A DNA stretch of 64,000 nucleotides from Affinundibacterium nitidum (lineage in GTDB: Bacteria; Pseudomonadota; Gammaproteobacteria; Burkholderiales; Burkholderiaceae_D): assembly GCF_014284155.1 (NCBI RefSeq), contig NZ_JACOFZ010000001.1:1382545-1446544 (forward strand). Reading direction: 5' to 3'. Position 1 is the first letter of the stretch; each line of letters starts with the position of its first letter. The position numbers and the translations under genes were made by a program. Positions 20,551-60,162 of this stretch are shown piece after piece. A model generated the notes under the pieces. The model made no database searches and was not told where the DNA came from. It saw nothing but the letters and a program-made list of their open reading frames with translations.

Positions 20551-22179
20551 CTAGCGTTTTTTCATAATGGAGCCCAACACACCGCGAATTATTTCACGAC
20601 CAACTTGAGAACCAATTGTACGAACCGCTGATTTGACTAGCGTCTCTGCGACATTATCTCGACGGCGAATACCCGATCCACCAAATAAATTGCCAAACAT
20701 GCCGCCCAGAGCATCGCCGATACCGCCACCAGATTGTGCAGGTTGTTGTTGCTGATTTTGCTGCGGATTTTGTGTCTGATTTTGCGAAGCAGGTTGACGC
20801 GAATTTGCGCTTGGCTGAGAGCTATTTCCCCAAGCTTGACCATCGTCAGCTGGCACAGGATGTGAACTCGCTGACGATGCAACGCGCCCTTTGAGTTTTT
20901 CGTAGGCCGATTCACGATCAACGGCTTTTTCGTAGACACCTGCCACGATCGAGGCCTTCATGATCTCAGCACGTTCTTGAGCATCAATGGCACCAATCTG
21001 CGAAGTCGGCGGCACGATGAACGCCCGCTGCACGATGTTGGGACGACCTTTTTCGTCAAGGAAGGAAATCAAAGCTTCGCCAACACCCAATTCACCGATC
21101 ACTGCAGCGGTGTCTAACTCAGGATTAGGGCGGAAAGTTTCTGCCGCTGCTTGCACCGCTTTTTGGTCACGCGGCGTATAAGCACGCAGCGCATGTTGCA
21201 CGCGATTGCCGAGTTGTCCCAAAACCGTATCTGGAATATCCAATGGGTTTTGTGTCACGAAATACACGCCCACACCTTTGGAGCGAATCAAGCGTACAAC
21301 CTGCTCAATTTTTTGCAACAAAACCTTCGGCGCCTCATCAAACAGCAAGTGGGCTTCGTCAAAGAAGAACACCATCTTTGGTTGTTCAACGTCGCCCACT
21401 TCAGGTAGGTTTTCATACAACTCAGATAGCATCCACAACAAAAAGGTCGAATACAAGCGTGGCGATTGCAATAAATGGTCGGCTGCCAAAATATTGACGA
21501 AACCACGGCCATCGGTATCGGTTTGCATCATGTCATCGAGGTTAAGCATAGGTTCGCCAAAGAATTCATCAGCGCCCTGCTCTGCAACGGCAAGCAACGC
21601 ACGCTGAATCGCGCCAATGCTGGCTGCAGAAATATTGCCGTACTCGGTTTGAAACTCAGAAGCGTTGTCGCCCAAATGTTGCAACATGGCACGTAAATCT
21701 TTGATATCGAGCAGCAACAGTCCATTATCGTCAGCGATCTTAAATGCCAATTGCAAGACGCCTTCTTGGGTTTCATTCAAGTTCAACATGCGGCCCAATA
21801 ACACGGGGCCCAAATCGGAAATGGTGGCACGTACTGGATGCCCCTGCTTGCCGAACACGTCCCAGAAAGTGACCGGGCAGGCACGCCACTTCACTTGATC
21901 AATGCCGAGCTGCTCACAACGTTGTTGTAATTTGCTCGTCATTTGCCCCGCTTTTGCCATACCTGAAAGATCACCTTTAACGTCAGCCATGAACACGGGC
22001 ACGCCAATATCGGAGAAAGATTGGGCCAAGACTTGTAAAGTCACCGACTTACCAGTGCCCGTCGCTCCCGTAATGCAGCCGTGTCGATTTGCCCAATCGG
22101 ACAAAAGGTGCCAATCCAAAATTTGTTGGTTGCCTTGTTTATTGTTGAGGCTCTTTGCAACTAATAGCGGTTTTGACAT
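20551..22179 (-). CDS. HerA-like ATPase (DUF853 / helicase HerA-like domain)
   Basis: A 542-residue P-loop ATPase with Walker [13 protein letters not shown], Walker B with acidic catalytic residue [11 protein letters not shown], and a later FVTQNP sensor. A low-complexity Gln/Asn/Pro linker (about 430-480) precedes a Gly-rich C-terminal tail with [10 protein letters not shown]. The family is widespread and conserved in Proteobacteria; a DNA-translocating or repair role is inferred from HerA. ATG 22179 is chosen because it begins [20 protein letters not shown]; the upstream 20 codons to 22239 look non-coding. Confidence 0.85.
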
Positions 22180-22339
22180 CGTGCGCACCCAAAAAGAAAG
22201 AAGAATTAGTCGAAGATTCATCGTCATAGACGCAAACAAAGTTCACAAAACCAACGTTATTCAGCGTCATTTGCTGACCTTAAGCACCTTTTCCACTTGA
22301 TTCAGGGAGAAGTTGGGGCGGTTTTGGACTGTTGCTCTA

Positions 22340-22348
22340 TGGTAGAAT
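22340..22348 (+). promoter_or_regulatory. Possible extended -10 promoter of yebC
   Basis: TGGTAGAAT fits the extended -10 pattern TGnTAnnnT about 110 bases before the yebC ATG. No good -35 is visible at the right spacing, as is usual for extended -10 promoters. Confidence 0.4.
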
Positions 22349-22459
22349 AGCGGTCTTCATTATAAAACTAATCCTTTGCAAAGTTTCCATCGCGACATGA
22401 AATAGTGGTCAGCGGCAGCAGAAAAATCCGCAAGGATGCCTATTTGAGAGAGAAAGATC

Positions 22460-23185
22460 ATGGCAGGACATAGTAAATGGGCCAATATCAAACACAAAAA
22501 AGCAGCCACTGATGCAAAACGCGGCAAAATCTGGACACGCTTGATCAAAGAGATCACGGTCGCAGCGCGCATGGGCGGTGAAGACATTGCCTCCAATCCA
22601 CGTTTGCGCTTAGCCGTGGATAAAGCGGCTGACGCGAATATGCCAAAAGAAAACGTCACCCGCGCTATTCAACGTGGTGCTGGCACATTAGAAGGCGCGA
22701 ACTATGAAGAAGTTCGCTATGAAGGTTATGGTATCGGTGGCGCCGCCATTATTGTTGACTGTATGACAGACAACCGCGTGCGCACTGTGGCGGAAGTTCG
22801 CCATGCTTTCAATAAGCACGGCGGGAATATGGGAACAGAAGGTTCCGTGGCATTTTTGTTCACCCACTGTGGTCAAATGTTTTTCGCACCGGGCACCAAT
22901 GAAGATGCGTTGATGGAAGTAGCGTTGGAAGCGGGTGCAGATGACGTCATCACAGACGATGAAGGCGGCATTGAAGTGACTTGCCCACCGCATGATTTGT
23001 CAGCGATTAAAGATGCGTTAGAAAAAGCGGGCTTCAAACCAGAAGTTGCGGAAGTGGTGATGAAACCACAAACTGAAACCGAGTTCACTGGTGAAGACGC
23101 GATCAAGATGCAAAAGATTATTGATGCATTAGAAAATTTGGATGATGTGCAAGAGGTTTTCACTAACGCCATCATTTTAGAATGA
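22460..23185 (+). CDS. yebC: YebC/PmpR family protein
   Basis: A 241-residue protein starting [22 protein letters not shown], the near-invariant start of the family, and matching it to the end. Members were first described as DNA-binding regulators and more recently shown to help ribosomes through polyproline stretches; which applies here cannot be read from the sequence. GAGAGAAAG lies just upstream of the ATG. It precedes purD by 184 bases holding a palindromic element. Confidence 0.96.
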
Positions 23186-23216
23186 GCATAAATCCAATTC
23201 TACGGCGCATCGCTTC

Positions 23217-23260
23217 GCCGCGCGTCCTCGCAATACTCTAGTATTGCTGCGGGGCGCGGC
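23217..23260. repeat. GC-rich palindromic element between yebC and purD
   Basis: Nested arms GCCGCG (23217-23222) / CGCGGC (23255-23260) enclose the perfect stem GCAATAC / GTATTGC (23230-23236 and 23241-23247) with a TCTA loop. There is no T-run, so it is less likely a classical terminator than a REP-like dispersed palindrome, though it could stabilise the yebC transcript end. Confidence 0.55.
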
Positions 23261-23369
23261 TCTCGCTGCATTCGTATAATCGAATTTCTGCATCATTCTA
23301 GATTTCGTGGTGCGATAAGATTCAAATTTGTAGCAAATATCAGTTCAACTCATATATTCAGAGTAAAAA

Positions 23370-24644
23370 ATGAAAATTCTCGTGGTCGGCTCCGGTGGTC
23401 GTGAACATGCATTGGCATGGAAATTAGCGCAATCAGAACGTGTACAAATGGTGTTTGTAGCACCAGGTAATGGCGGCACGGAATTGGATAAGAATCTGAA
23501 GAATATCAATATTACCGATCCGCATGCCCTGGCTGATTTCGCGGCACAGGAAAGCATCGGTATTACCGTGGTCGGCCCTGAAGTGCCTTTGGCGGCCGGT
23601 ATTGTGAATATTTTCCGTGATCGTGGCTTGAAGATCTTTGGACCAACGAAAGAAGCGGCGCAACTCGAAAGCTCAAAAGATTTCGCTAAAGCTTTCATGC
23701 ATCGCCACCATATTCCGACAGCGGAATATCAAACTTTTTCTGATCTCCAAGCCGCGCACGATTACCTCAATCAAAAAGGCGCGCCTATCGTGATTAAGGC
23801 CGATGGTCTGGCTGCTGGAAAAGGCGTGGTGGTCGCGATGACGGCAGAGGAAGCCCATGCTGCGGTTGACATGATGTTGTCTGACAATAAGCTTGGCGAT
23901 GCTGGTGCGCGCGTAGTTATCGAAGAGTTTTTGGCAGGTGAAGAAGCGAGTTTCATCGTCATGGTCGATGGTAAAAATGTCTTGCCTCTCGCAACAAGCC
24001 AAGATCACAAACGTTTGCTCGACAATGATCAAGGCCCCAATACGGGTGGTATGGGTGCTTACTCCCCAGCACCTATCGTGACACCACAATTGCATGCGCG
24101 TGTGATGCGCGAAATCATTCAACCTACGGTACAAGGCATGGCGAAAGATGGTATCGTCTTCACTGGTTTCTTGTATGCTGGTTTGATGATTGACGACCAA
24201 GGCAATCCAAAGACACTGGAATTTAATTGCCGTATGGGCGACCCAGAAACGCAACCGATTATGTCGCGTTTGAAAACAGATTTAGTCACGGTGATGGAAC
24301 ATGCCGTCAATGGCACGCTTGACACTATCGAACTCGAATGGGATAGACGCACAGCAATGGGCGTTGTGATGGCAGCGGCTGGTTATCCAGATGCTCCAGA
24401 AAAAGGGGCTGAAATTAGTGGCATCCCTGCGGAAAGTGCTGATTGCATTACCTTCCATGCGGGTACCGCTTTAAATGGTGGCAAATTGAACGTCACCGGT
24501 GGTCGCGTATTGTGCGTCGTTGGCTTGGGCGATTCCGTCAAAACAGCGCAGAAACACGCTTATGACGTCGTTGAAAAAATCCAATTCAAAGGCGCGCAAT
24601 ACCGCAAAGATATCGGCTGGCGCGCACTGAACAGAAAACACTAG
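23370..24644 (+). CDS. purD: Phosphoribosylamine-glycine ligase
   Basis: A 424-residue ATP-grasp enzyme that makes glycinamide ribonucleotide in purine synthesis. It starts with [19 protein letters not shown] and has [42 protein letters not shown] and the metal-binding [12 protein letters not shown]. Length and motifs are complete. It is followed by hemF after 47 bases. Confidence 0.97.
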
Positions 24645-24691
24645 TTTTACCGAACTCCTCAAACGCCAATTTATTTTTAGTATTCACATCT

Positions 24692-25591
24692 ATGACTGAC
24701 GCCGCATCTGTAAAAGACTATCTGCTAGGCCTACAAGCTTCTATCGTTGCGGCGATGGAAGAAGTGGATGGCTGCAGCTTTATTACCGATAGCTGGGATC
24801 GTCCCGAAGGTGGTGGTGGTATCTCGCGTGTGATCGAAGAAGGCAATGTATTCGAACGTGGTGGTGTGAATTTCTCGCACGTGATGGGTAATAATTTACC
24901 GCCTTCCGCTGCAGCAAGTCGCCCAGAATTGGCCGGCCGTCGTTGGGAAGCCATGGGTGTTTCGTTGGTACTGCATCCACGTAATCCGTATGCGCCAACA
25001 GTACACATGAACGTCCGTTTCTTCACAACGTATGCGGAAGGCCAAGAGCCAGTATGGTGGTTTGGCGGCGGCATGGATTTAACGCCATATTATGGTTTCG
25101 AAGAAGACGCCAAACACTTCCACCAAACCTGCAAAGATGCGCTGGTAGGCTTTGGTACAGACTTGCATCCGCGTTTCAAAAAATGGTGTGATGAGTATTT
25201 CTATTTAAAGCATCGCAAAGAAGCGCGCGGTGTTGGAGGCATTTTCTTCGACGATTTCAACGAGCAACCATTTGATCAAAGTTTTTCCATGACGAAAAGC
25301 GTCGGCGATGCCTTCGTCAAAGCTTATCGCCCTATCTTAGAGCGTCGTAAAGACCATGCGTATAGCGAACGTGAACGTGATTTCCAAGCCTATCGTCGCG
25401 GTCGTTATGTCGAGTTTAATTTGGTATTTGATCGTGGCACGCACTTCGGTTTGCAGTCTGGTGGCCGTACCGAATCAATCTTGATGTCGATGCCCCCTAT
25501 CGTCAAATGGCGCTATAACTGGACGCCAGAAGCGGATAGCGCCGAAGCGCGTTTATGGACAGACTTTTTAGTACACAAGGAATGGGTATAG
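24692..25591 (+). CDS. hemF: Oxygen-dependent coproporphyrinogen-III oxidase
   Basis: A 299-residue enzyme that oxidatively decarboxylates coproporphyrinogen III to protoporphyrinogen IX in haem synthesis. It has [26 protein letters not shown] and the C-terminal [17 protein letters not shown] block. Its stop lies just inside the start region of nadD, so the pair is translationally linked. The oxygen-dependent form suggests aerobic growth. Confidence 0.97.
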
Positions 25592-26280
25592 AAACCGCCA
25601 AGCCACAAAAAGTACAACACGCTGTACTGGTGTTTGGCGGTAGTTTTGATCCTGTGCATCAAGGCCATATGGCCATGGTGCAGCACATGGTAGAACGCTT
25701 GCAGATAGACGAAGTACGTTTAATCCCCGCGGGCCAACCATGGCAAAAAGCGCGCTTGAAAGCCAGCGCAGAACAAAGAACAAGGATGTTGCAGTTAGCT
25801 TTTGAAGACACATTAACTGTGCCTTTCTGCATCGACCAACAAGAAATCGAACGTGCCGCTGCACAAGTGCCAAGCTACACAATCGAGACCTTGAAAAATT
25901 TGCGATCTCAATTGGGTAATGCGGTCGCTCTCAATTTGCTCATTGGTGCTGACCAATTTCACAATTTCGCAACGTGGAAAGACTGGCAGCAGATTTTTAA
26001 CTTAGCAAACATCGTGGTGGCGGCAAGACCAGGCTACAACTTGCAACCCGACGAATTACCCAGCGAATTTGCCGCGCTTTGGCAGCAAGCAAATGGCACT
26101 ATTGAAGACCTCAAGCAATGCTCTTTTGGCAAAACCTGGCTAGAAACTGATCTGGCTTGGGATATTTCTGCAACACGAATTCGCGACGAATTGCAGCAAC
26201 AAGGGCAAACCAGGGAAACCACCTCGCTTATTCCACGCAAGGTGTTAGACTACCTTCAAAGCGAGCGGATTTACAATTAG
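25582..26280 (+). CDS. nadD: Nicotinate-nucleotide adenylyltransferase
   Basis: A 232-residue nucleotidyltransferase of NAD synthesis. The family motif [13 protein letters not shown] (GxFxPxHxGH) is near the N-terminus and the ISATRIRDE block (SxTxxR) near the C-terminus. ATG 25582 overlaps the hemF stop by 10 bases; an in-frame ATG at 25555 would add nine residues that lie inside hemF. The start is followed by about ten residues of non-family lead-in before the conserved strand. Confidence 0.95.
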
Positions 26281-26382
26281 CGTCAACCTCATAGCAACCA
26301 GAAAACGAATTAACGTAAGATAGTCTTCAAACTCACGATGAAGCTAGCACCAAGAATTCAAAATTTAGATAGATAGGGCATT

Positions 26383-27069
26383 ATGGATATCAAAAAACTG
26401 CAAACTTTAGTCTTCGACGCATTGGAAGACGTGAAAGGTCAAGACATTCAAGTCTTTGACACGACCGAAATCACTAGCTTGTTTGACCGCGTTTGCGTGG
26501 TCTCTGGTACCTCCAATCGTCAAACCAAAGCGCTGGCCGCTTCGGTGCGCGATAAGGTCAAAGAAAACGGCGGCGAGATCGTCGGCATGGAAGGTGAAGG
26601 CACCGGTGAATGGGTACTGGTCGACTTGGGCGACATGGTCGTTCACATCATGCAACCAGCGATTCGCGCTTACTACCGTTTGGAAGAACTATGGGGCGGC
26701 AAAGAAGTCAAAATGGGCGCGGCTAAACGCACTTCCAAAATGACAGCAGGCCCGATGGATGAAGAAAAACCAAAACGCTCCCGCTCCAAAGCAGCACCAG
26801 TCGAAGTCACGCCAGATATGATGGCGATTCAAACGACCTTGGAAGACGAGAAAAAACCAGCACGCAAACCACGCGTCAGCAAAGTCGCGGCAGAATTAGC
26901 TGGCGAAAAACCAGCCCGTAAAACTGCAGCTAAGCCACGTGCGACAGCAGCAACACCGAAGATCCCTTCCGGTGGTCGCGTCAAAGTAGCGGCAACCAAG
27001 ACAGCAACGGCTTCTGCCAAAGAAGCTGCAGTGAAGAAGGCGACTACACGTCGCAAGACAGCGGAATAG
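26383..27069 (+). CDS. rsfS: Ribosomal silencing factor RsfS with a long basic tail
   Basis: Residues 1 to about 112 are the RsfS/Iojap domain (DTTEITSLFDRVCVVSGTSNRQ, then VHIMQPAIRAYYRLEELWG), which binds ribosomal protein uL14 and blocks subunit joining when nutrients are short. Standard RsfS ends here. This protein continues for about 115 residues rich in Lys, Ala, Pro, Arg and Thr (KPARKPRVSK, KPARKTAAK and related), like histone-H1-type tails. The tail is in frame with no sign of a frameshift. It may bind rRNA or DNA; that is inference. A terminator follows. Confidence 0.93.
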   Translation: MDIKKLQTLVFDALEDVKGQDIQVFDTTEITSLFDRVCVVSGTSNRQTKALAASVRDKVKENGGEIVGMEGEGTGEWVLVDLGDMVVHIMQPAIRAYYRLEELWGGKEVKMGAAKRTSKMTAGPMDEEKPKRSRSKAAPVEVTPDMMAIQTTLEDEKKPARKPRVSKVAAELAGEKPARKTAAKPRATAATPKIPSGGRVKVAATKTATASAKEAAVKKATTRRKTAE

Positions 27070-27121: not shown

Positions 27122-27404
27122 ATGGGTGTTTGATTTGATAAGAGTTTCGACTTGATTCGCGCCCAAGGTTCACTAGCATTCGCTGGCCGGGTGTGGCCCG
27201 GCGGCCACTCACTTTCTTTGCTTCGCCAAAGAAAGTAAGCAAAGAAAGGAAGTGGCTGTCGGCCCCCCCCCGACCTACAGACAGACGTGCCACTCCCAGC
27301 CAACAAAATATGAGATTCCCACCTAGACAAGAAATAACAAACACTGCAAGCACAAACCACCACAAAGTATAATCACACCCAACACAGTAACCTCCCCCAC
27401 CATC
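27122..27404. other. Intergenic region rsfS-rlmH holding repeat copy A
   Basis: This 283-base gap carries one full copy of the dispersed palindromic repeat (27179 to about 27290), including a run of nine Cs at 27263-27271. The remaining sequence before rlmH is AT-rich and should hold the rlmH promoter, but no clear -35/-10 pair was placed. No gene is seen. Confidence 0.6.
27179..27249 (+). repeat. Dispersed palindromic repeat, copy A
   Basis: These 71 bases match copy C (60092-60162, inverted) with one difference. The core contains CTTTCTTTGCTTCGCCAAAG followed by a second inverted CTTTGC-type unit. The next about 40 bases (GAAGTGGCTGTCGG, nine Cs, then GACCTAC) match, inverted, the start of copy B at 59597. 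Copy A therefore has both end types seen separately in copies B and C. Confidence 0.85.
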
Positions 27405-27875
27405 ATGCAACTCATCATCGCCGCCGTTGGCCACAAAATGCCGTCTTGGATTGAAACTGGTTTTCAGGAATATGCCAAGCGCATGCCGCCTGAGATTCGG
27501 ATTCATTTGAAGGAAATCAAGCCGATTGAACGTTCGGGAAGTAAAACCGCTGAAACCGTGATGGCGCTCGAGAAAGAAAAGATTGAAGCAGTAATTCCTA
27601 AGAATGCTCGGATTATCGCTTTAGACGAACGTGGCAAAGACCTAACATCGGTCGGTTTAGCAAAGCAGCTAACCGATTGGCAACAAGATGGGCGGGATGT
27701 CGTGTTTGTGATTGGTGGTGCCGACGGATTAGATGCAGAATTCAAGGCAAAAGCCGATGGCTTGATCCGTATTTCGAGTTTAACTTTGCCACATGGCATG
27801 GTGCGTGTATTATTAGCAGAACAACTTTATCGCGCTTGGTCAATTACCCAGAATCATCCTTACCACCGGGTCTAA
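27405..27875 (+). CDS. rlmH: 23S rRNA (pseudouridine-1915 N3)-methyltransferase
   Basis: A 156-residue SPOUT-class methyltransferase that modifies pseudouridine 1915 in helix 69 of 23S rRNA. It shows the knot motifs FVIGGADGL and [20 protein letters not shown] and the conserved end NHPYHRV. The gene is complete, but its last 92 bases (27784-27875) occur again at 29393-29484, beyond the next gene, so its present 3' end appears to have been brought in by recombination. ATG 27405 gives the normal family length. Confidence 0.96.
27784..27875 (+). repeat. Direct repeat 1: rlmH 3' end (functional copy)
   Basis: This 92-bp segment matches 29393-29484 at 79 positions by hand count. The first 33 bases are identical and all 13 differences fall after them. 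In codons, 12 differ; 11 are synonymous and one changes Ala to Gly. Homology begins abruptly at CTTTGCC and ends at the TAA stop in both copies. Confidence 0.9.
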
Positions 27876-27943
27876 TTGTAGCCTTCTTATAGCCCTCGCC
27901 ACGCTCGATTTCTTTTCTGTGTCTTCGAACGTGGGGTGATGCC

Positions 27944-29374
27944 ATGCAGCTGTTCCGTTCTGTCTTTTTATCCGCTTGTCTCGGACTCGCCTTATTGTCT
28001 TTTTCCACGTCACCTGCCCGCGCGCAAGAAGCGCAGGTCGACGAAAAGCATGATCTCAGCATGCGCGCCATGATACGCCTCGTGCATGAGAAGCCCGCGC
28101 AATTTAACAAACTTTGGGCAGAACGACGTCGTCTCCAAGAACGTACTCTCTCTCCCAAGCTTGCTCCCAATCTGCGTGATGACGAACGCAAAGCAGGGTT
28201 GCAGAATGTGCAATGGCAATGGGCTGCAGGCTTAATCAACTACCCTTACTTTCATCAACGCGAGACTGGCGGAGTGGTTGCCGCCAATTGGAAGCCCAAG
28301 CGGGATGCGATTAAGTCCATCCAGTTCAATGATGAAGCAGATATAGAACAAAGCAATTTCCAGCTCTTAATTCAAGCATGGCTGCACGACGAAGCGGGCA
28401 GATTAGTCAAACAAGATCCAGAACTGCAGCGTGGCGACAACCGCTGGTTGCGCGCCAACTTTAGTGCACTCGACAAGGCCATTACCAGCAACAAAGCGAA
28501 GGCCCATTTCAAGAGCAGGTTGTTGGCAGAACATATCGATGACAATGGCCCTAAGAATGTCTTGCCGCAGATTTTGAGTGCAGAGAAAAATGGAGTGTCA
28601 TCGGAACAGATCGCGAAGTTCCGCGCCGCCTACGAACAAGAGACGCAAGCGCCAAAAGACCACGTCGCCTACACATACCAAACTGTTGATGGCGTAGATC
28701 TGCAGTTGCACGTCTTCCCCGCCAAAGCTGACACCAAAGATGCCCCAGTGTTCATTTGGTTTCATGGAGGCTCATGGAGTACGGGGCATTGGAGTTATTG
28801 TCCTGTGGTCTGTCGCACCCTGCAAAACCGTGGATTTGTCGTGGTACAAGTGGAATACCGCACCTCACAACGTTTTGACGGCACGCCACTGAATGCCCTC
28901 GCCGATGCCGAGCACGCCATCGACTGGACGATCGCCCACAGCCAAGAGCTTGGGATCAATCCAAAAAAGCTGATGGTCGGCGGCTTCTCGAGTGGCGGGG
29001 CGCTAGCCTCGCAAATGGCCGTACTCAATCATACGAAAGTAAGCGCTGCGGCCTACATGTCTGGTGGTTTTAATCCGTCTAGAGATACGTGGTACAACAG
29101 CGTGGTGGGCCCACTGCGCGATACCAAACAACTATCCCCACTTCTGATGGTCAACCGCAGCAGTCCGCCACAAATCCTATTTCATGCCAAAGATGATGAA
29201 ATGTGCGCTTATCAAGATGCGCAAAGCCTTGCTTCCAAATTGACGGCACTTGAGATACCGAATCGTTTAGTCAGTTTCGAACAAGGTGGGCATTTCTTTG
29301 TTTTTAAAAACCCGGCAGACCGCCAACGTATTTCCAGCGAACTTTTGAGTTTTGTTGAACAGCTCAAATGGTAA
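27944..29374 (+). CDS. Secreted alpha/beta-hydrolase (esterase/lipase), cargo between rlmH repeats
   Basis: A 476-residue protein with a signal peptide ending near ARAQEA (about residue 28). Residues about 30-235 form an unassigned N-terminal region. The C-terminal hydrolase domain (about 240-476) has the oxyanion motif HGGSW, the nucleophile elbow GGFSSGG (Ser in GxSxG), an acid in HAKDDEM and the catalytic His in GGHFF, like BD-FAE or hormone-sensitive-lipase-type esterases. It is the only gene between the two copies of the rlmH 3' end. The native rlmH-maf neighbourhood does not need it, so it looks acquired. Substrate unknown. Confidence 0.85.
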
Positions 29375-29392
29375 CAGCCGTCCGTCGTTTTC

Positions 29393-29484
29393 CTTTGCCA
29401 CATGGCATGGTGCGTGTATTATTAGGGGAACAACTCTATCGCGCTTGGTCGATCACGCAAAACCACCCTTATCATAGGGTTTAA
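29393..29484 (+). pseudogene. rlmH: Direct repeat 2: displaced 3' end of rlmH
   Basis: These 92 bases encode the last 29 codons and stop of RlmH ([13 protein letters not shown] through NHPYHRV) but have no start or upstream part. The fragment lies about 40 bases before maf, where the original rlmH would end in a normal rlmH-maf arrangement. Its reading frame and synonymous-only drift show it was until recently a selected gene end, not a long-decayed duplicate. Confidence 0.9.
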
Positions 29485-29523
29485 GGAACGTGTCCCGCCA
29501 AGCTCAGCATCAGGATTTTGGCC

Positions 29524-30135
29524 ATGGGCTACCAACAGAAAATTTATCTTGCTTCGAAGAGCCCACGCCGGCGTGAACTCTTGCGTCAAGTCGGTATCGA
29601 CTTTGAAGTCTTGCTCTTGCGTGATTCAGCACCGCGCGGCCCCGATGTAACCGAAATCGTGTTGCCGGGCGAACTGCCTGATGTCTATGTGGCGCGTGTC
29701 ACCCAAGAAAAAGCCGTCGCCGCTTGGAACGCCATGTTGGCACGGCATCTACCGCCTCGACCGGTGTTGGCGGCGGATACGACCGTTGTCATCAACCAGA
29801 AAATTCTTGGCAAACCCGCCGACCGCGACGCTGCCATCGCCATGCTGAGCCAATTGGCTGGCAGCACACATCAAGTATTGACCAGCATCGCAGTCAAATA
29901 TCAGCATCAATTACTTCAATGTACTCAACGCTCAGAAGTGACGTTCGCGCCCCTGAGCGACGCACAGATCACTGCCTATTGCGATACTGCCGAGCCCTAC
30001 GATAAAGCAGGCGGCTACGGCATCCAAGGCATGGCAGCGCGATTTATCGAACATATCAGCGGCAGTTATTCAGGCATCATGGGGCTTCCCTTGTTTGAGA
30101 CCTGCGAATTACTGCAAAGCTTCAAGAATTCTTAA
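29524..30135 (+). CDS. maf: Maf family nucleoside triphosphate pyrophosphatase
   Basis: A 203-residue protein with the Maf signature IYLASKSPRRRELLRQVG and the block VLAADTTVVINQKILGKP. Maf proteins hydrolyse non-canonical or modified NTPs; the YhdE subgroup prefers dTTP/UTP. AGGA lies ten bases before ATG 29524, so this start is preferred to a TTG two codons upstream. The gene leads into rng after 18 bases. Confidence 0.93.
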   Translation: MGYQQKIYLASKSPRRRELLRQVGIDFEVLLLRDSAPRGPDVTEIVLPGELPDVYVARVTQEKAVAAWNAMLARHLPPRPVLAADTTVVINQKILGKPADRDAAIAMLSQLAGSTHQVLTSIAVKYQHQLLQCTQRSEVTFAPLSDAQITAYCDTAEPYDKAGGYGIQGMAARFIEHISGSYSGIMGLPLFETCELLQSFKNS

Positions 30136-30153
30136 ATACTCGAATCGACCATC

Positions 30154-31629
30154 ATGAGCGACAATCTCTTAATCAATATCACGCCGCAAGAAACGCGCGT
30201 CGCCCTAATTTTTCAGGGCGCCGTGCAAGAATTGCACATCGAACGTACGCTATCGCGCGGCTTAGTCGGCAATATTTATCTCGGCAAGGTGGTGCGCGTG
30301 CTGCCTGGCATGCAATCAGCCTTCATCGATATCGGCTTAGAACGCGCTGCGTTTTTGCATGTCGCTGATATTTGGGATGCTCGCCCACAAGGGCACGAAG
30401 GCAATCCCAATAACGTGCCACTAACACCGATCGAAAAGCTTTTGTACGACGGACAATCGGTCACGGTACAAGTGGTGAAAGACCCAATCGGCACCAAAGG
30501 TGCGCGCCTGTCGACACAAATTTCAATCGCTGGGCGCATGCTGGTGTACTTGCCACAAGATTCGCACATAGGCATTTCGCAACGTATCGAAAACGAAGAA
30601 GAGCGCGAAGCTTTACGCACGAAAGTGCAAGGCATGATGCTGGAAGGTGAAAAAGGCGGCTTCATCGTCCGCACCATGGCCGAAGACGCTTCGGAAGAAG
30701 ACCTACGTACCGATATTGAATATTTACGCCGCACATGGTCAACGATTACCAAACTCGCCAAAACCAAACCACCCTGCAGCCTTTTGCACCAAGATTTAAA
30801 TCTGGCACAGCGTGTCTTACGTGATTTCGTCAACGAAGAAACCGATACCATCCAAATCGATTCGCGCGAAAATTACAACATGCTGCAGGACTTTGCACGC
30901 ACTTACACTCCGTCGGTGCTGCCGAAACTACAGCACTACACGGGCGAGCGTCCACTGTTTGATTTGTACGGCGTAGAAGAAGAAATCGAACGTGCACTCG
31001 GCCGTCGCGTCAATCTCAAATCGGGCGGTTACCTCATCATCGATCAAACTGAAGCGATGACCACCATCGACGTCAACACCGGCAGCTTTGTCGCTGGTCG
31101 CAATTTTGATGACACGATTTTCAAAACCAATTTGGAAGCGGCAATTGCGATTGCCCGCCAACTGCGTTTACGTAATTTAGGCGGCATCATTATTCTTGAC
31201 TTGATTGACATGGAAAGTCAGGAGCACAAAGATGCTGTGCTCGCCGAACTCAACAAAGCGCTATCACGCGATCGCACCAAGCTCTCTGTTTCGACCTTCT
31301 CTGCCTTGGGTTTAGTTGAGGTCACCCGCAAACGCACACGCGAATCGCTCGCCCACGTACTATGCGAACCCTGCCCTGCATGCAGCGGCAAAGGCCAAGT
31401 CAAAACCGCTCGCACTGTCTGCTACGAAATTTTGCGCGAACTCTTACGCGAAGCGAAGCAATTCAACCCACGCGAATTCCGCATCATGGCTTCACAAGTC
31501 GTGGTGGATATGTTTTTGGAAGAAGAGTCACAACACTTGGCGATGTTGGGTGACTTCATTGGAAAGCCGATTTCACTGCAAGTGGAAAATGTGTTTCATC
31601 AGGAGCAGTACGATATTATTTTGATGTGA
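30154..31629 (+). CDS. rng: Ribonuclease G
   Basis: A 491-residue endoribonuclease of the RNase E/G family that matures the 5' end of 16S rRNA and degrades some mRNAs. An S1-like domain lies near residues 35-130, the DNase-I-like catalytic part contains IDVNTGSFVAGRNF and the metal-binding IILDLIDM, and the zinc-link cysteines are in CEPCPACSGKG. It lacks the long C-terminal scaffold of RNase E. Only 18 bases separate it from maf. Confidence 0.96.
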   Translation: MSDNLLINITPQETRVALIFQGAVQELHIERTLSRGLVGNIYLGKVVRVLPGMQSAFIDIGLERAAFLHVADIWDARPQGHEGNPNNVPLTPIEKLLYDGQSVTVQVVKDPIGTKGARLSTQISIAGRMLVYLPQDSHIGISQRIENEEEREALRTKVQGMMLEGEKGGFIVRTMAEDASEEDLRTDIEYLRRTWSTITKLAKTKPPCSLLHQDLNLAQRVLRDFVNEETDTIQIDSRENYNMLQDFARTYTPSVLPKLQHYTGERPLFDLYGVEEEIERALGRRVNLKSGGYLIIDQTEAMTTIDVNTGSFVAGRNFDDTIFKTNLEAAIAIARQLRLRNLGGIIILDLIDMESQEHKDAVLAELNKALSRDRTKLSVSTFSALGLVEVTRKRTRESLAHVLCEPCPACSGKGQVKTARTVCYEILRELLREAKQFNPREFRIMASQVVVDMFLEEESQHLAMLGDFIGKPISLQVENVFHQEQYDIILM

Positions 31630-31678: not shown

Positions 31679-32068
31679 ATGACTAACCAAGATTGGAAGA
31701 AGTTTCTACAAACCTCACGTGAAGTTTTGGGGAAAGGTTCATGTCACCCTTATTCGAGCGAATCTTGGTGTGCATTTACAACATTTAGCAGCCTGATCCA
31801 TGGCGTACATTACTTTACTCTAGGGCTACCTGATATTGAGGACTGTCTTGAAAGCCGCACTATAGACGGTGGAGTGTGGGCGCAATCAATTGAGTATGAT
31901 GACCTAGCACACATCATCATTCCAGAAACGTTCTATTGGGAGCGGACGGTGCAGGGATTTGAAAGCGGATATAAGACGCAGAACATCAAACTCCTCTCTG
32001 AAGAACTACTCAGACAAGGAATCGAACATCGTTTGACCGATCTCGTTCTCGAAATCAAAGTCTATTGA
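31679..32068 (+). CDS. Hypothetical protein, orphan
   Basis: A 129-residue soluble acidic protein with many aromatic residues (Trp, Tyr, Phe) and no signal peptide. No family recognised. It has a weak ribosome site. It starts a patch of orphan and decaying ORFs between rng and the O-GlcNAc-transferase-like gene. Small proteins of this look are often immunity or accessory proteins of lost mobile units; nothing in the sequence proves that. Confidence 0.55.
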   Translation: MTNQDWKKFLQTSREVLGKGSCHPYSSESWCAFTTFSSLIHGVHYFTLGLPDIEDCLESRTIDGGVWAQSIEYDDLAHIIIPETFYWERTVQGFESGYKTQNIKLLSEELLRQGIEHRLTDLVLEIKVY

Positions 32069-32081
32069 ACCGCATTCCTCG

Positions 32082-32495
32082 ATGAATCACAAACGATACG
32101 AAATATGGCTGCTGACTCATCCAAGAGGTGGCCTAAATCCTCGGATATGGAGAGAAAATAGAGAATCTTGTGATGCTCAGACCCCCTTTCAGCATGCGAT
32201 TGGAATCCGCTATAAGCGACAAGGTGCTTTTCTATACCCGCAAACCAGGATCGAATTTCTCACATTTGGTAGAGGTGGTGTACCGAAAAAGACATCAGAA
32301 CTTTTCACAGATATTTTCCATAAAGGCAGACACTCAAGAAATCTTACTCGATACCGCCATGGAACTAGTCAAATGCTAGGAGGAGCAACAGGATATGCGA
32401 TATTTTGCTCTCGAAAGCTGAAGAAGCGATCAGTAAGCAAGGTTGGTGCTGTTTATTCCGGTTCAATTTGGGTACACAAAAAGTATGATTTTTGA
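32082..32495 (+). CDS. Hypothetical basic protein, doubtful
   Basis: A 137-residue frame rich in Arg, Lys, Gly and His, 13 bases after the preceding ORF. No domain recognised and no clear Shine-Dalgarno. A second frame (32170-32379, 69 codons) is open in the same stretch, so the true coding frame is unsure and the gene may be frameshifted. Confidence 0.3.
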   Translation: MNHKRYEIWLLTHPRGGLNPRIWRENRESCDAQTPFQHAIGIRYKRQGAFLYPQTRIEFLTFGRGGVPKKTSELFTDIFHKGRHSRNLTRYRHGTSQMLGGATGYAIFCSRKLKKRSVSKVGAVYSGSIWVHKKYDF

Positions 32496-36620: not shown

Positions 36621-37373
36621 ATGCCACTTCGTGGATTTAGACAGGTCAAACGATGTACCGTAAAGAATGCGAGTCGGATGTTCATAAGCGCCCTTTCACA
36701 CATCAGCGCTTCGATAACGGCAATGCCATCACCAATGCGAGCTCGCACCCTCGCTAGCATCAACACATTTTTGACGCTGTTTTTCTGTACCGCAGTGCCC
36801 GCTTACGCCGAGATTTATCGTTGCACAAGCCATGAAGGTAAAATGATTTCAGCCGATCGCGTGCCTGCAGAGTGCCGCGGTAAATTAATCCGCGTTTTTT
36901 CTGACTCAGGAAGCTTTAAGTCCGAAATCATGCCTCCATTGAGTGCTGCTGAAAAACAAAAGAAAGCACAGGAAGTGGAATCACAACAGCAACAAAAAAT
37001 GGTCGCTGAGGAGTTTCTGCGCGAAGAGCGTTTCCTGACTGCCCATTTCCGTAGTGAATCAGATATCACACAAGCGCAAAAAAAGGCACTTGAACTCGTT
37101 GAAGCCAAAAAGAAGATGGTTTTGGAGCAGCTCGATCTCCTCGCCAATATTGTCTATGAATTGAGAATAGAGATTAGTAATGCAAAGCAGCTGGACAAAA
37201 ATTCGAAATCATTTCAACAGCTATATCAATCAAGGCTCGACGAGTTGACGCGTTCTATCAAAAAAAGCCAAGATCAATTAGCGACTTACGAAACTGAAAT
37301 CGATAGAATTAACCGTGAATACGACCAAACGCTACAACGTTATCGGGTTGTGGTTGTGAGCAGACGTCGCTAG
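36621..37373 (+). CDS. Exported coiled-coil protein, DUF4124-like N-terminus
   Basis: A 250-residue frame. A probable signal peptide (MRARTLASINTFLTLFFCTAVPAYA) would start at ATG 36735, though the first ATG at 36621 has the better ribosome site (GGGGAG). After cleavage comes a short DUF4124-like domain (EIYRCTSHEGK, then VPAECRGK) and then a long charged coiled coil (about 105-240) rich in Lys, Glu and Gln. A periplasmic structural or scaffolding role is inferred. Function unknown. Confidence 0.7.
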   Translation: MPLRGFRQVKRCTVKNASRMFISALSHISASITAMPSPMRARTLASINTFLTLFFCTAVPAYAEIYRCTSHEGKMISADRVPAECRGKLIRVFSDSGSFKSEIMPPLSAAEKQKKAQEVESQQQQKMVAEEFLREERFLTAHFRSESDITQAQKKALELVEAKKKMVLEQLDLLANIVYELRIEISNAKQLDKNSKSFQQLYQSRLDELTRSIKKSQDQLATYETEIDRINREYDQTLQRYRVVVVSRRR

Positions 37374-43936: not shown

Positions 43937-44707
43937 ATGTTCTCCACAGTAAGAGCATCAATGTCGCACAGCATAAGCATAGTGCTATTGACGGCAATAG
44001 CATTGTTCCAGTCCTTTTCTGCCTGCGCTGTTGAGCCACCGGCAAGCTGCGTAGAGATTCAGAATCTTGGTGGTAGCAACGGCGAATATAGAATCACCAA
44101 CAACTGCACCACTGATGTGAGTGTTGCTTACTGTTCAATCACAAAGAAAATTTGGGGAAAACAGTGCGGTCAAACTGAAAGTAAGTTTAACCAGTATTAC
44201 ACGCACATGATGACATTAAAGCCAGGTGAGAAATCAAGTCGATCTGGCAATGGCGAAATGCGCTTTGCAGCTTGTCCTGGGTACATTAATTCTTGGGACA
44301 GTATCAAAGGCAAGTTTCAAAGTAATACGGATGGAAGCTTCGTGTGTTGGCCGGAAACAAGTTTACCCAAAGACAAAGTAGCCGAAAAAACTGAAAGCAC
44401 TAAAACACAAATGGCAATATCGAGCGCAGCATCAAAAGATATCGGCGATGCTTGCGCACATGCCCGAGAGCCTTTGATTGAGGCCGGCATTACACCACCC
44501 CTTTGTAATTGCAAGGCGGCCGGTTCGGAAGGCTTAGCGGCAAAAATATATCGCTGTGAAATCCAATATGCGATTCCAGAAACCTCAGGTGACATGATCA
44601 ACAGCTTGAAAAGCTGGGTACGGAAACAGATACCTAGCTGCGATGCCACCAAAGAAAAAGATTGTGCGAAATCTCGCAGCGTCAGTATTGGTGGCATTCG
44701 CGGCTGA
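43937..44707 (+). CDS. Exported protein of unknown function
   Basis: A 256-residue protein with a signal peptide ending near FSACAVEPP. The mature part has at least ten cysteines, likely as disulphides in the periplasm, and a small beta-rich N-terminal unit (SCVEIQNLGG to AACPGY). No family recognised. It lies convergent with the TPR gene, 14 bases from its end. Confidence 0.65.
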   Translation: MFSTVRASMSHSISIVLLTAIALFQSFSACAVEPPASCVEIQNLGGSNGEYRITNNCTTDVSVAYCSITKKIWGKQCGQTESKFNQYYTHMMTLKPGEKSSRSGNGEMRFAACPGYINSWDSIKGKFQSNTDGSFVCWPETSLPKDKVAEKTESTKTQMAISSAASKDIGDACAHAREPLIEAGITPPLCNCKAAGSEGLAAKIYRCEIQYAIPETSGDMINSLKSWVRKQIPSCDATKEKDCAKSRSVSIGGIRG

Positions 44708-59600: not shown

Positions 59601-59662
59601 TCGGGGGTGGCCCGACAGCCACTTCCTTTCTTTGCTTCGCCAAAGAAAGGAAGCAAAGAAAG
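59601..59662 (+). repeat. Dispersed palindromic repeat, copy B
   Basis: These about 62 bases share the CTTTCTTTGCTTCGCCAAAG core with copies A and C. Its left end (GTAGGTCGGGGGTGGCCCGACAG region, from about 59597) matches the inverted right end of copy A. Copy C faces it 430 bases downstream. Confidence 0.8.
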
Positions 59663-60091: not shown

Positions 60092-60162
60092 CCTTTCTTT
60101 GCTTACTTTCTTTGGCGAAGCAAAGAAAGTGAGTGGCAGCCGGGCCACACCCGGCCAGCGAA
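60092..60162 (-). repeat. Dispersed palindromic repeat, copy C (inverted)
   Basis: The reverse complement matches copy A (27179-27249) with one mismatch in 71. Together with copy B, facing it, it bounds a roughly 560-base structured block. Confidence 0.85.

Follow-up and report, generated by a model that had tools for sequence, protein, structure and literature searches.

How did a single esterase-like gene come to lie between rlmH and maf, flanked on either side by a copy of the end of rlmH? The window, by which we mean the whole stretch of 64,000 nucleotides that was analyzed, holds the following features at this locus.

27405..27875, plus strand: rlmH, complete, 156 aa (Pfam PF02590)
27784..27875, plus strand: upstream copy of the repeat, the working rlmH 3′ end (repeat search, codon comparison)
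27786..27813, plus strand: promoter-like TTGCCA-16-TATTAT inside rlmH, which would read into the esterase-like gene (consensus scan, codon conservation)
27944..29374, plus strand: insert gene, encoding a 476-aa alpha/beta-hydrolase that is esterase-like and probably secreted (Pfam PF20434, E = 1.5e-24; further hydrolase families also match)
29375..29392, plus strand: right-hand junction of the insert (alignment of 8 displaced copies)
29393..29484, plus strand: downstream copy of the repeat, read as the displaced native rlmH 3′ end, unattached to any gene (repeat search, codon comparison)
29395..29422, plus strand: second promoter-like TTGCCA-16-TATTAT, within the displaced copy, the candidate maf-rng promoter (consensus scan, box conservation)
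29518..30135, plus strand: maf (Pfam PF02545); the open reading frame runs from TTG at 29518, and the likely start is ATG at 29524
30154..31629, plus strand: rng, an RNase E/G family gene, the downstream flank (Pfam PF10150)

According to the original prediction, the last 92 bp of rlmH are repeated just ahead of maf with 79 of 92 bases matching, and this count is exact; the single gene (27944-29374) that it placed between the copies was likewise confirmed. An independent repeat search of the window paired 27778-27875 with 29387-29484 (98 nt, 85%). When the 92 bp were used to query the window's whole genome, the only two matches at E ≤ 0.001 were the two repeat copies themselves (E = 2e-42 and 1e-24), a similarity that far exceeds anything for which chance could account. 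From codon 128 onward, the copies differ at 13 nucleotides spread across 12 codons, 11 of which have changed synonymously, and the lone non-synonymous difference is in codon 138 (GCA to GGG). Identity is complete over the first 33 bases (27784-27816), and these counts, too, are as first described for the window.

The topology of the repeat, taken alone, would also result if the rlmH end had been tandemly duplicated in place and the esterase gene had arisen in, or moved into, the space between the copies, with no foreign DNA involved. We find this hardly credible, given the 13 changes between the window copies, with 11 of 12 changed codons synonymous, and given that displaced copies are on average nearer to the working ends of two other genomes (G002 and G010) than to their own.

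The product of the insert gene is a probable secreted esterase, judging from its sequence. Its start resembles a signal peptide (judged by eye), a hydrolase domain occupies approximately residues 253 to 473 with BD-FAE as the best Pfam family, and the closest solved structures by sequence are PDB esterases, which align to residues 244 to 454; the N-terminal half has no Pfam match. Twelve NCBIfam models matched the protein at E ≤ 0.001, none of them above its own cutoff, and PADLOC returned zero matches. The gene is present in 7 of the 44 genomes of the genus, always at rlmH-maf. Among 295 genomes of the family, none from another genus carries it at E ≤ 1e-30, and samples of 369 genomes of the class and 398 of the phylum yielded nothing except the window's own gene at E ≤ 1e-40. 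No relatives were confirmed in viral contigs, and 213 plasmid and 9 phage records gave only matches with less than 60% identity and less than 80% coverage.

Comparison across Undibacterium establishes that insertion at rlmH-maf is real and recurrent. The gap between the two genes was measurable in 41 of the 44 genomes (G018, G020, and G041 were left out). In six of these (the window's own genome, G000, together with G017, G031, G008, G024, and G033), the esterase gene is followed by a second rlmH end; in a seventh, G012, it stands without one, and the esterase is 55 to 57% identical. A decayed second rlmH end without the esterase gene is found in two genomes (G042 and G039), and neither element was detected in the other 32, whose gaps measure 3 to 188 bases. 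The site thus holds an accessory gene between two conserved genes that is present or absent among relatives. For G003 and G011 (gaps of 3 and 63 bases), the repeat search missed even the working end, so a relic there could be overlooked. A single cargo family was found in the 41 gaps of the genus, and few gaps were viewed outside it. Empty sites, on which the original prediction had made itself depend, therefore exist (32/41); other cargos between rlmH 3′-end repeats, for which it had also suggested looking, were not found in the measured gaps of the genus, where the esterase is the only one.

The G042 locus (L091) has a gap of 521 bases between rlmH and maf from which the esterase gene is absent and in which a decayed rlmH end carries TTGCCA-16-TATTAT; the corresponding box of its working rlmH is TACTAT. 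A protein search for second rlmH ends in 295 family genomes (27 of them from the genus; E ≤ 0.01), which decayed relics escape, gave two rlmH matches in G000, G031, G033, G024, and G327 and one each in the relic-bearing G039 and G042. The second match in G327 was rejected as an rlmH end, being a 35% stretch inside a 663-codon frame.

Is the displaced end long-dead debris, or was it recently the working end of a gene? The comparisons that bear on this rest on small numbers (54 to 93 bases per end). Over codons 139 to 156, the displaced and working ends of the same locus differ only synonymously in G000 (11 codons), G017 (9), and G033 (6), and those of G024 differ by 8 synonymous codons and 1 other; the copies in G031 and G008 are decayed, with 7 synonymous and 7 non-synonymous codons. 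When the displaced ends of G000, G024, and G033 are compared with the working end of G002 over codons 128 to 156, 14 distinct codon changes emerge, and 5 of them are non-synonymous, against 77% expected for dead DNA (P = 0.001); codons 128 to 130 of G033 account for three of the five, and codon 138 of G000 accounts for another. With the comparison confined to codons 139 to 156, 1 of 9 is non-synonymous (P = 3e-5), a cut that was chosen after the data had been seen, and only this part of the displaced ends, past codon 138, is nearly clean. When displaced ends are compared with one another (codons 128 to 156), the pair G000 and G033 shows 4 synonymous and 4 non-synonymous codon differences, and the pair G024 and G033 shows 5 and 4, respectively.

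Over its last 82 bases, the displaced end of G033 matches the working end of G002, its empty sister, base for base, and the 4 differences all fall in the first 11. A right-hand crossover within the repeat would leave this pattern, with a short, decayed stub of donor origin joined to the end native to the recipient. Together with the mostly synonymous differences, this identity suggests that displaced ends were functional until recently. Across 54 bases, four displaced ends lie on average 10.0% from the clean ends of G002 and G010 and 17.1% from their own working ends, and the working ends of occupied loci are nearer to one another (9.3%) than to the clean G002 and G010 ends (16.7%). The sorting is imperfect: the working end of G033 is 11% from both that of G002 and its own displaced end, and the working end of G010 is 17% from the displaced end of G000. 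Conversion of the displaced copy by the working copy of the same locus is disfavored by these distances. The synonymous pattern and the match between G033 and G002 support the earlier proposal of a native downstream copy that functioned until recently and an upstream copy borne by the insert, and in the favored reading the rlmH 3′ end of the window would derive from the insert.

At the right-hand junction, 7 of the 8 displaced copies share GTTTT(C/G)CTTT, and the remaining one, G039, reads GATTTGCTTT. Because working rlmH reads GTTTAACTTT at the same position, the exact boundary of the insert is uncertain by several bases. A junction common to 7 of 8 copies indicates that the founding junction probably formed once. 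The non-synonymous GGG at codon 138 is common to the displaced copies of G000, G017, G031, G008, and G042, which belong to different species groups, and this distribution points to a stub that travels.

Phylogenetic comparison reveals a conflict between the esterase gene and the genomic background. In the tree of the rpoB region, G031, G008, and G024 form a group, with G033 next, and in the esterase tree, G000 and G017 join G031 and G008. The tree favored by rpoB is rejected by the esterase data (p-AU = 0.004), as are two variants of it (0.003 and 0.013), and neither esterase-like tree is accepted by the rpoB region (p-AU = 2e-37 and 4e-73). When the esterase is divided, its N-terminal part still rejects all three rpoB-like trees (p-AU = 0.016 to 0.045); the C-terminal part alone does not reject them (p-AU = 0.07 to 0.15), and one esterase-like tree is not rejected by rng (p-AU = 0.18). 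The gyrB matrix was left out, since its loci included poorly alignable flanks. Between the window and its nearest relative, G017, identity is 99 to 100% at the start of rlmH, 68 to 91% from mid-rlmH to mid-esterase, and 94 to 98% thereafter. The intergenic region between rsfS and rlmH is also dissimilar (64 to 79%), so low identity between these two genomes is not restricted to the cassette. We read the dip from mid-rlmH to mid-esterase as an exchanged tract with its edges inside genes and at no fixed site. The tree conflict and this tract support the idea that incoming DNA supplied a new rlmH end, and both agree with homologous recombination as a candidate route of incorporation.

These results also bear on the possibility of one ancient insertion that was inherited vertically and then lost in places by deletion or by recombination between the rlmH ends, the young look of the displaced ends being due to chance. 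Such a history would fit the junction common to 7 of 8 copies, the relics in G042 and G039, the decayed copies in G031 and G008, and the non-synonymous changes in the first codons of the G033 copy and at codon 138. It is nevertheless unlikely, as it conflicts with the mostly synonymous changes in the displaced ends of G000, G024, and G033, the 82-base identity of the G033 copy to the working end of G002, the failure of displaced ends to have been converted toward their own working ends, and the disagreement between the esterase and rpoB trees.

The original prediction went further than insertion and compared the locus to a site-specific, SCC-like island. A site-specific island or satellite, either of the SCC/ECC type or of the tyrosine integrase type, with its recombinase acting in trans or lost, would explain recurrence at one position, regeneration of the end of the target gene, and the existence of empty sites. 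The Pfam scan revealed no recombinase family among 23 window ORFs (14.5 to 44.7 kb, mostly ORFs of at least 190 aa), in agreement with the earlier remark that none was visible; the sole name related to insertion sequences, IstB, came from a weak match to the P-loop of an ArsA ATPase. The insert codes only for the alpha/beta-hydrolase and holds no ccr serine recombinase gene, one hallmark of SCC/ECC, and the conserved direct-repeat att sites that are another were not found. The 33-bp block is identical between the upstream and displaced copies in only two of the six occupied loci (G000 and G017) and differs by 1 to 4 bases in the other four, 5 of 8 displaced copies have 2 to 6 bases changed relative to the block in the window, and the window's 33 bases stand unchanged in the working rlmH of an empty genome, G029. 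An SCC-like att core was rejected on these grounds, the identity being inconstant and also present without an insert. With one cargo gene, a repeat that starts 30 codons before the end of rlmH and has no constant core, tract edges within rlmH and the esterase gene, and no esterase relatives found in viral contigs, a site-specific island seems quite improbable. What stands of the original reading is that a new end probably came with the insert, that the native end was probably pushed downstream, and that empty sites exist; site-specific, SCC-like behavior is unsupported.

If the 33-bp identity is not an att core, it may instead reflect a predicted promoter inside rlmH. A consensus scan of 27300-29700 gave two promoter-like sites, one in each copy, and because shuffled sequences average 1.7 matches the scan alone proves nothing. 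In 12 genomes of the clade, the variability of rlmH is close to its lowest at codons 127 to 137 (rank 4 of 146 windows) and at codons 135 to 140 (rank 2 of 151); in 30 other genomes of the genus, the same ranges show no such low variability (ranks 92 and 113). Positions at which a single codon is used are enriched in codons 127 to 140 (5/13 versus 8/112; p = 0.004), a range that was picked afterwards. TATTAT is intact in all 8 displaced copies, including those without remaining coding sense, and in 11 of 12 working copies, the exception being G042, whose displaced copy holds both boxes. In three decayed copies, changes affect 0 of 36 box positions, 7 of 48 spacer positions (p = 0.016), and 63 of 186 downstream positions (p = 2e-6). 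The displaced copy of G033 has lost the −35 box, and when it is added the comparison of box with spacer is no longer significant (p = 0.11) and that of box with downstream remains so (3e-4). This conservation suggests that the displaced end may be retained because it carries a putative maf-rng promoter and that the upstream rlmH end would supply a putative promoter for the esterase gene.

Overall, we consider it probable that the locus holds a one-gene accessory cassette between core genes that has spread in Undibacterium by homologous recombination of chromosomal DNA; ordinary DNA recombination is more likely to be responsible than a dedicated jumping-DNA enzyme. In outline, DNA uptake would bring in donor DNA consisting of an rlmH 3′ end, the esterase gene, and a short dead piece of an rlmH 3′ end. 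A left crossover inside rlmH would give the recipient gene the donor's working end, and a right crossover, either in the dead rlmH piece or beyond it in maf, would strand the native end upstream of maf. We infer a single original joining, the right side of which perhaps arose by homology-facilitated illegitimate recombination, after which homologous transfers and losses would have followed. The stranded end begins just upstream of the promoter-like element inside rlmH, so that maf-rng would retain a promoter, and the incoming end would give the esterase gene one.

A tentative extension of this model, possible although we would sooner doubt it than adopt it, is that the cassette would be a recombinase-free, one-gene mobile unit with its own homing arms and promoter. 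The working rlmH end would be the left arm and the dead stub the right, host homologous recombination would place the unit in any related rlmH, and the promoter in the rlmH end would keep both the cargo and maf-rng transcribed at every landing. The natural series of empty, occupied, and relic sites illustrates how a single gene may cross species without a mobile-element gene, by exchange of the terminal part of a gene for an rRNA methyltransferase. A reason why such a junction is tolerated is suggested as well, in that a predicted promoter hidden in a coding end would be duplicated along with that end.

The surroundings of the locus show rearrangements of their own. The block upstream of rlmH at 20551-27069 in the window (a HerA-like gene, YebC, purD, hemF, nadD, and rsfS) is apparently inverted in G033 (L088 1-4455), judging from the order and strand of the purD, YebC-like, and HerA-like ORFs (the latter two by eye), with HerA adjoining rlmH; purD is on the opposite strand also in G002, G031, G008, and G024. 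The gap between rsfS and rlmH, where one end of the G033 inversion would fall, contains a 39-nt inverted repeat (window 27185-27275). A 33-mer across this inverted repeat (27216-27248) has three copies in the window, the others at 59630-59662 and 60093-60125, with 0 to 1 mismatches, and shuffled sequences contain none. In G010 (L094 2155-3906), other genes stand upstream of rlmH, namely, oxidoreductase-like and TetR-like ORFs (by eye), which makes the region before rlmH another point of rearrangement. Four window ORFs (31679-32068, 32082-32495, 36621-37373, and 43937-44707) had no Pfam match at E 1e-5.

Among the titles and abstract openings listed from a literature collection of limited coverage, none dealt with the rlmH-maf insertion locus, and several known systems resemble it in part. 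In SCC, rlmH is the target gene, and the insert supplies the rlmH end. The locus is like SCC/ECC in both of these respects. From SCC/ECC cassette chromosomes as part of PMC6222049 presents them, it differs in that neither ccr genes nor a constant att-like repeat was observed, the insert has one gene, and the repeat starts 30 codons before the stop. The likeness is one of outcome, and likeness of mechanism is not demonstrated. An insertion with a long target duplication in Helicobacter pylori was reportedly described by Nobusato et al. in 2000. Such an insertion is mentioned in a passage of PMC1643837, and the combination of an inserted gene with a long target duplication is similar here; unlike that mention, which concerns a duplicated target, the rlmH copies seem to come from different lineages and not from a single target that was newly duplicated. 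For T6SS/Rhs loci, portions of PMC5361080 and PMC3240628 describe homology-facilitated illegitimate recombination and the displacement of parts. As in those descriptions, one homologous anchor would deliver a new 3′ part and shift the old part downstream; unlike the variable effector, immunity, and toxin parts at those loci, the displaced piece at rlmH is the conserved end of a housekeeping gene. A single founding event would account for the junction common to 7 of 8 copies, and a homologous anchor on one side with a non-homologous junction on the other is one possible mechanism for it.

Hotspots without recognizable mobile elements and with recombination in flanking core genes form, in the relevant part of PMC5635113, a statistical class over 80 species. 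The rlmH-maf site shares with that class gene turnover between core genes, the absence of mobile-element genes, and a recombination signal in a flanking gene, and differs from it in that a single locus with a defined junction is concerned. In Neisseria, minimal mobile elements were reportedly described by Saunders and Snyder in 2002. The definition quoted in PMC3082526 is of whole-gene cassettes between conserved genes, with incorporation attributed to homologous recombination. Like the Neisseria elements so defined, the locus has a whole-gene cassette between two conserved genes, which may have been incorporated by homologous recombination; unlike them, it has one cassette or is empty, with no alternatives, and so departs from that part of the definition, and it retains a displaced piece of a flanking gene. 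With mobility as a proposal, the best reading of the cassette is that it is minimal-mobile-element-like.
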